Assembly: GCF_000020525.1 (NCBI RefSeq)
Contig: NC_011026.1
Span: 1,966,001 to 2,030,000, forward strand
Length of the DNA stretch: 64,000 bases
DNA from: Chloroherpeton thalassium ATCC 35110
GTDB taxonomy: Bacteria > Bacteroidota > Chlorobiia > Chlorobiales > Chloroherpetonaceae
Direction of reading: 5' to 3'
Shown: positions 24,916 through 29,116 of the stretch, piece after piece
Layout of the letters: every line of letters starts with the position of its first letter
Position numbering within the stretch: the first letter of the stretch is position 1
Made by a program: the position numbers and the translations under genes
The notes under the pieces: generated by a model
What the model was told of the DNA's origin: nothing
Seen by the model: the letters and a program-made list of their open reading frames with translations, nothing else
The model's database searches: none

Positions 24916-25562
24916 CTACACGTTTTTCGCTTGCGAGAAATATGCGTCGGCCATTTGGCAAAGCTTTCTTGCTGAAACTTCCGGTTCAGGAGAAGCAGCA
25001 ATCGCCGAGACCATCGCAACCAAATCCGCACCTGCAGCAAGCACATCCAAAAGATTGCATTCGTTCAGCCCGCCAATGGCCACCAGCGTATGATGAGATT
25101 TTTCGCGAAACGCTTTGAGTCCATCCAAGCCCCACTGGGTTTTGGTGTCCGTTTTTGTCGGTGTGCTATAAATCGGACTGAGCGCAAGGTAATCTGCATC
25201 TAACGGCTCGGCAGCCGCAGCCTCTTCAACGCTTTCAATCGAGAGGCCGATGATTTTTTCTGGGCCGAGCAAGCGCGTGCATCGGCATAGGGCATGTCGC
25301 TTTGGCCGATGTGCACGCCATCGGCGTTGGCGGCAAGGGCAATGTCGATTCGATCATTAATTAGCAGTAGCACGCGAAAGGGCATGAGCAATGCTTTGAG
25401 CGCTTTGGCTTTTTCAAGAAACGCGCGGGTTGAGGCGTGTTTTTCGCGAAGCTGCACAAGCGAGACGCCGCCCTTGACAGCGCCATAAACGACTGTTTCA
25501 AGAGCGTGCGTCGGGCAATTTTCTTCACCCACAACAAGATAAATGCCTTTTCTTACGCGCAT
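24916..25562 (-). pseudogene. thiE: Thiamine-phosphate synthase ThiE, interrupted by a frameshift
   Basis: Two minus-strand frames together give one complete ThiE of about 215 residues. The first (from 25562) has GIYLVVGEENCPTHAL, VSLVQLREKHAST and LLINDRIDIALAANADGVHI followed by GQSDMPYADARA. The second (ending 24916) continues LLGPEKIIGLSIESVEEA and carries ADYLALSPIYSTPTKTD and LVAIGGLNECNLLDVLAAGA. The expected ARALLGPEK is broken because one base is missing around 25270-25274 (GCTTGCTC instead of, for example, GCTTTGCTC). Immediately after the break lies A6 (CAGAAAAAATCATC). Slippage there by minus one in translation, or one extra A in transcription, would restore the frame with the same total length. 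ThiE joins HMP-PP and thiazole phosphate. Overlaps thiM by 10 bases. Confidence 0.85.
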
Positions 25563-26619: not shown

Positions 26620-26665
26620 CCGTGCGGAATGCTTTTTCGTCTAGTCGTTTTTCTCTTTACACTAT

Positions 26666-26683
26666 CTACAGCTTCGGCTGTAG
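26666..26683 (+). promoter_or_regulatory. UUCG-tetraloop hairpin in the csm-like leader
   Basis: CTACAGC-TTCG-GCTGTAG: a perfect 7-bp stem closed by C(UUCG)G, one of the most stable RNA tetraloops. It ends 34 bases before the start codon and has no T-run, so it is not a terminator. Position in a long 5' leader of a presumably abundant transcript suggests mRNA stabilisation. Confidence 0.65.
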
Positions 26684-26717
26684 TCAATTTACTTTAAAAC
26701 AAAACCTGATTACTACA

Positions 26718-26948
26718 ATGGCCGAACAACAAAATCAATTAGGCGGTTTATTTGACGGTGTCTTCAAATCAATGAACGACATTCTCACAGCTCAAGGCAA
26801 ACTTATTGGCAAGAGCATTGAAGTTCAATCTTCTTTAATGGACGCTGTCAACAAAAACGCTACCGACGTTTTGGGTACCTTCACCAAAAAGGTAAACGAA
26901 GCTTTGAGCGGCACATGGACTGGCTTTGGCGGTGCTGCTAGCAAGTAA
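26718..26948 (+). CDS. Small protein resembling chlorosome envelope proteins CsmB/CsmF
   Basis: A 76-residue protein from ATG 26718 (MAEQQNQLGGLFDGVFKSMN). Upstream in-frame codons belong to the leader with the hairpin, so the longer reading is rejected. Its amphipathic helical body (ILTAQGKLIGKSIEVQSSLM ... TDVLGTFTKKVNEALSG) and size are like the ~75-residue CsmB/CsmF proteins that coat the chlorosome, the antenna of green bacteria. It is flanked by its own promoter, a stable leader hairpin and a strong terminator, fitting a highly expressed single gene. The Csm link is pattern-based; a phasin-like granule protein is the main alternative. Confidence 0.5.
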   Translation: MAEQQNQLGGLFDGVFKSMNDILTAQGKLIGKSIEVQSSLMDAVNKNATDVLGTFTKKVNEALSGTWTGFGGAASK

Positions 26949-28296: not shown

Positions 28297-29116
28297 ATGA
28301 CGACTTTTTTATTTTGGAATATCAATAAAAAGCCGTTGGCTTCTCAAATCATCAACATTGTAGGGGCTTACGATGTTGATGTCGTTATTTTGGTTGAAAG
28401 CCAGCTTGCCAAAACGGGGAGGTTTCTTAGGGAAATCAACACGAAGCTACGTCCAGGCTATGCGCTGTTGCCGAATCGCAATTGTGAAAAAATTGAAATT
28501 TATACGCGCTTTGCCACAAACCGATTTCAGGCACGGGAAGAAAGTGACCGCTACACCATTGAGAAAATCAACTTTCCTGTGGCTGAAGGTGTTTTATTAG
28601 CCGCGCTCCACTTTCCAAGTAAAGTAAATTGGAGTGAAACGAGCCAAATGTTTGAAGCTGTTGATTATGCGGAACGCATCAGAGCTGTTGAAAAACAAGA
28701 AAACATTTCACGAACGGTTGTCGTCGGGGATTTTAACATGAATCCTTGAAGCTGGAATGATTTCGGCAAACGGCTTCCATGCAATGATGACAAGAAAATT
28801 AGTAGAGAAGGAAAAGCGCATCGTACAAGGAAAAACGTATCCATACTTTTACAATCCCATGTGGGGGCACTTCGGGGAAAGCCTGCCCACTCCTTCAGGA
28901 ACTCACTACCACGCGCGTTCCGAACAAGTTGTTTTCTTTTGGAATATGTACGACCAAGTTTTGATTCGCCCGGCGCTCTTCCCCTATTTTGATTCTAAAG
29001 ACTTGCTTATTTTAACCTCCGACGGAAAAAACAGTTTGCTAACCTCAACTGGAACACCTGATATTCAAAATGGCTCTGATCATTTGCCAATACTTTTCAA
29101 ACTAAATATTGAATAA
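28297..29116 (+). pseudogene. Endonuclease/exonuclease/phosphatase (EEP) family protein, interrupted by a frameshift
   Basis: Two frames together form an EEP-fold enzyme of about 273 residues. Frame one (28297-28749) has TFLFWNINKKP, VDVVILVES and the catalytic VVVGDFNMNP, then hits TGA. Frame two resumes with EAGMISANGFHAMMTRK (from about 28749) and carries the terminal NGSDHLPILFKL with the catalytic SDH. The expected NPFEAG would read CCT TTT GAA; the sequence has CCTTGAA, a net loss of two bases in a T run. All active-site residues are otherwise intact. Substrate (DNA, phosphoinositide-like or nucleotide) unknown. The break may be a true mutation or a sequencing error. Confidence 0.8.

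Follow-up and report, generated by a model that had tools for sequence, protein, structure and literature searches.

A one-base frameshift in the thiM-linked thiE gene of Chloroherpeton thalassium lies beside an ordinary A6 run

Introduction

In the genome of Chloroherpeton thalassium, the thiE gene that follows thiM is divided between two reading frames, and a run of six A's (A6) lies just beyond the division. The locus raises the question of whether this gene is broken in the cell, is rescued by slippage at the A6 run, or is broken only in the deposited sequence. Single-base events of this kind are well known, yet we found no earlier description of this particular thiE locus, and searching the literature yielded no publication about thiamine genes in this organism.

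The window, that is, the whole stretch of 64,000 bases that was analysed (G000:C1:1966001-2030000), is part of an assembly consisting of one closed-size contig of 3,293,456 bases, with a completeness score of 99.86%. For comparison 61 genomes were searched, among which G001 is the only other one of the same family. The background of frame breaks was obtained from a coding-potential scan of 184 kb, comprising the window and 120 kb of flanks.

Results

The thiM-thiE pair is located on the minus strand, with thiM (hydroxyethylthiazole kinase) at 26356-25553 and thiE starting from 25562, resulting in an overlap of 10 bases. The thiM gene is intact, scoring 354.6 bits against NF006830 and 284.1 bits against TIGR00694, both above the cut-offs, in addition to a match to PF02110. 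An Rfam scan of the window gave tRNA only, with no TPP riboswitch at the thiM-thiE operon. On the plus strand at 26622-26948, a small protein (MAEQQNQLGGLFDGVFKSMNDILTAQGKLIGKSIEVQSSL...) looks phasin-like by eye.

The N-terminal half of thiE (frame a, 25562-25200, minus strand) begins with the ATG at 25562, is closed by a stop that ends at 25200, and encodes 120 residues. It reads as ThiE up to ARA, the homology being lost after ...GQSDMPYADARA, and ends with 23 out-of-frame residues. A sequence-only reading of this DNA had proposed that a one-base frameshift splits the gene and that the remainder continues in the -1 frame from LLGPEKIIGL. Both proposals proved correct. DNA alignment with the intact syntenic ortholog (L035:3903-4565) revealed a single gap, between 25273 and 25272, and the C-terminal half (frame b, minus strand) is open from 25272 to 24916, spanning 118 codons with a TTG at its beginning as the sole start codon. 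The two halves match positions 1-95 and 92-180 of the 180 positions of the Pfam TMP-TENI profile (PF02581), each above the cut-off and jointly covering the full domain. Against TIGR00693 (thiE), they match positions 2-98 and 94-196 of 197, and neither half alone reaches the cut-off of 145.1. With either profile, no single reading frame carries the whole of ThiE, the break lying at 25273/25272. Both frames are jointly open over 154 nt, and neither a tandem repeat nor phase variation was found at the lesion site.

Matches to thiE were found in 59 of the 61 genomes, and among the copies above the cut-off only the window locus is split. G001 possesses the same thiM-thiE pair, in which thiE is one open frame of 220 residues with the same A6 run. 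In a tree of 68 proteins the window thiE and this G001 copy are paired at 100/97, apart from the clades of biosynthetic thiE and tenI-like genes. The frame break is therefore not conserved in homologs across the set, the G001 ortholog being intact. A scan of public genome contigs with the C-terminal half as query yielded distant relatives only, the best at 48% identity.

Elsewhere in the same genome, at about 2.43 Mb and near thiD and thiG, an intact thiE is adjacent to a tenI-like gene that is likewise intact. Since another intact thiE is thus present in a biosynthetic cluster, the window copy is spare. Judging from the established pathway, the ThiE of the biosynthetic cluster should be able to use the thiazole phosphate derived from ThiM, and loss of the window copy should therefore be tolerable. 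In addition, only a minority of the order has ThiM (7 of 41 genomes above the cut-off), indicating that the thiM-thiE salvage pair is optional or dispensable there.

To judge from its halves, the gene shows no decay. At codon positions 1/2/3, the N-terminal half differs from the G001 ortholog by 0.38/0.21/0.70 and the C-terminal half by 0.38/0.24/0.62, a pattern resembling that of intact thiM, thiD and the biosynthetic thiE. Neither half carries a further stop or frame break. As both halves are still coding-like under constraint and no second lesion is present, the lesion is either recent on this scale or not in the organism at all.

The 184-kb scan recovered thiE and at least two more breaks in otherwise intact genes. 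The first, 3.5 kb from thiE, splits an endonuclease/exonuclease/phosphatase (Exo_endo_phos) gene into 28297-28749 and 28757-29116 on the plus strand. This nuclease is broken after ...VVGDFNMNP, whereas in the relative G003 (L050) the homolog forms an uninterrupted frame of 270 codons and is followed by a similar neighbour. The break is not flanked by six A's or T's in a row. The second gene, mtaB (tRNA methylthiotransferase; L054:12830-14317, genome positions about 2042830-2044317, plus strand), is located about 53 kb away and appears frame-broken, its first piece matching the 416-position profile TIGR01579 no further than position 324. Three broken genes within 184 kb, including one so close to thiE, make an unpolished sequence plausible.

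The lesion itself lies at one edge of an imperfect GC-rich inverted repeat (25273-25318), whose arms at 25273-25286 and 25305-25318 are 79% complementary and whose DNA fold has a z of -1.63. Such a repeat could promote either a replication slip or read compression. No counterpart of it was reported at the same site of the intact G001 ortholog.

The A6 run (25254-25259, minus strand) starts about 14 nt downstream of the lost base and is the only homopolymer of at least four within the 154-nt overlap of the two frames. In the frame of the C-terminal half it reads GAA AAA ATC, Glu-Lys-Ile. As had been suggested from the sequence alone, a slip at this run restores the frame and alters only LLGPE to CSAQK, and these five residues fall in weakly conserved columns. 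At the corresponding place the intact G001 thiE reads GAAAAAATT and the window copy GAAAAAATC. Since the intact ortholog has the same run, A6 is not tied to the lesion and plainly encodes Glu-Lys-Ile.

Runs of this type are common in the window. Its coding sequence (56.7 kb) contains 77 A6 runs, 20 runs of more than six A's and 32 in-phase heptamers of the AAA-AAA type, many of which are GAAAAAA as at thiE. For a random coding position, the chance of a run of six or more A's starting in the next 14 nt downstream is 2.4%; for a run of at least six A's or T's it is 14% within 30 nt on either side and 34% at any place within an overlap of 170 nt. The 154-nt overlap contains no X XXY YYZ slip heptamer. 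The 84 nt downstream of A6 fold no better than shuffled sequences (z -0.78), which gives no sign of a stimulatory structure there. A wider segment folds better (z -2.35) and includes a GC-rich hairpin upstream of the run. With six A's, the site also falls short of the run length of about nine or more A's or T's at which transcriptional slippage typically occurs. We conclude that the A6 run beside the lesion is coincidental and part of ordinary coding sequence, with no sign of deliberate frame-switching.

Discussion

Taken as a whole, the locus is very probably a redundant thiE paralog in which one base is missing through an isolated event and nothing is programmed to recover the frame. The loss may be in the assembly or in the cell, and we regard the two as about equally likely, a weighting that is judged rather than computed.

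If the cell's DNA does contain the base, which was dropped during sequencing or consensus calling, thiE would be normal. We consider this an even bet. It is consistent with the absence of any other lesion in either half and the retained pattern of coding substitutions, with the three frame-broken but otherwise intact genes of the 184 kb, and with the position at one end of the GC-rich inverted repeat, where reads could be compressed. In a survey of 1106 prokaryotic genomes, unclustered singleton frameshifts validated by BLASTp were expected to reflect errors of sequencing and not true indels (PMC3711429). The thiE break is of that kind, being isolated, validated by homologs and not conserved. 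However, the high completeness and the single closed-size contig argue against such an error. The most common error site in 454 sequencing is a long homopolymer, and the missing base does not lie within one.

A recent mutation that made a fresh pseudogene of a spare salvage gene is a serious possibility as well, a little short of even. The second intact thiE and the sparse retention of ThiM in the order both suggest that such a loss would be tolerated, but the complete lack of decay in thiM and in either half of thiE fits less well. As the second gene of a thiM-thiE thiazole-salvage pair, thiE would in this case be translated for only 120 residues, half of a (beta/alpha)8 barrel, and the window copy would yield no working thiamine phosphate synthase. 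The ThiM product would then probably be used by the intact ThiE of the biosynthetic cluster elsewhere on the chromosome.

It is very unlikely that transcriptional or -1 ribosomal slippage at A6 produces a useful full-length ThiE. The run does lie inside a short stretch open in both frames, closely behind the loss, so that a slip there would cost only five residues. In addition, the dnaX gene of C. thalassium has a nine-A run and is among the poly-A dnaX frameshift genes listed as slippage candidates (PMC3711429). Nine A's, as in that gene, is a believable length for slippage. In most genomes runs become slippage-prone at about nine, although this length differs between organisms (PMC1088944). 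The frequency of insertions grows exponentially as runs lengthen, and in E. coli and Buchnera no transcription errors that restore the frame were observed (PMC5574713). Transcriptional slippage was rejected because the run is short and also present in the intact ortholog, and programmed -1 frameshifting was rejected because heptamer, stimulator and conservation of the break are all absent. Of the three readings offered from the sequence alone, those of a pseudogene and of an error stand, as does the frameshift itself. The emphasis on slippage does not, as the run is shared with the intact ortholog, common, short and accompanied by neither heptamer nor stimulator, and the break is unshared among the 61 genomes.

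A weaker version, in which the loss is real and low-level slippage at A6 yields a little full-length salvage ThiE, sufficient for the cell's needs, is likewise highly improbable. Separate synthesis of two half-barrels that assemble into a working enzyme is the least credible reading and was rejected. Although the break falls roughly halfway along the TIM-barrel domain (profile positions 95/92 of 180), the C-terminal half lacks a good start, having only the TTG at the lesion itself and no ribosome-binding site in evidence. In addition, the N-terminal half ends in 23 out-of-frame residues, and conservation of the split is lacking.

Among known systems, the thiE locus shows no material difference from the singleton frameshifted genes of the GeneTack survey, which are indel pseudogenes or sequencing errors (PMC3711429): it has one break, intact homologs, no conservation and homology support for both halves. 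It resembles dnaX of Thermus thermophilus, in which transcriptional slippage occurs at an A9 run (PMC1088944), in that an A run lies near the break and a slip would restore the frame. However, the run in thiE comprises six A's instead of at least nine, it is present in an unbroken relative, and the split is not conserved. With E. coli dnaX, where A AAA AAG and stimulators direct programmed -1 ribosomal frameshifting, it shares adjacent AAA AAA codons, but it lacks an X XXY YYZ heptamer, a stimulatory structure above chance and conservation.

The thiE break is ordinary and has little import beyond annotation. More generally, if an intact ortholog already has a short A run, finding that run beside a frame break says little in favour of recoding. 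Several isolated frame breaks are present in this reference sequence and merit rechecking. In mtaB, there are possibly two breaks within about 100 nt, beside T5/T6 runs, and the gene seems to continue in other frames.
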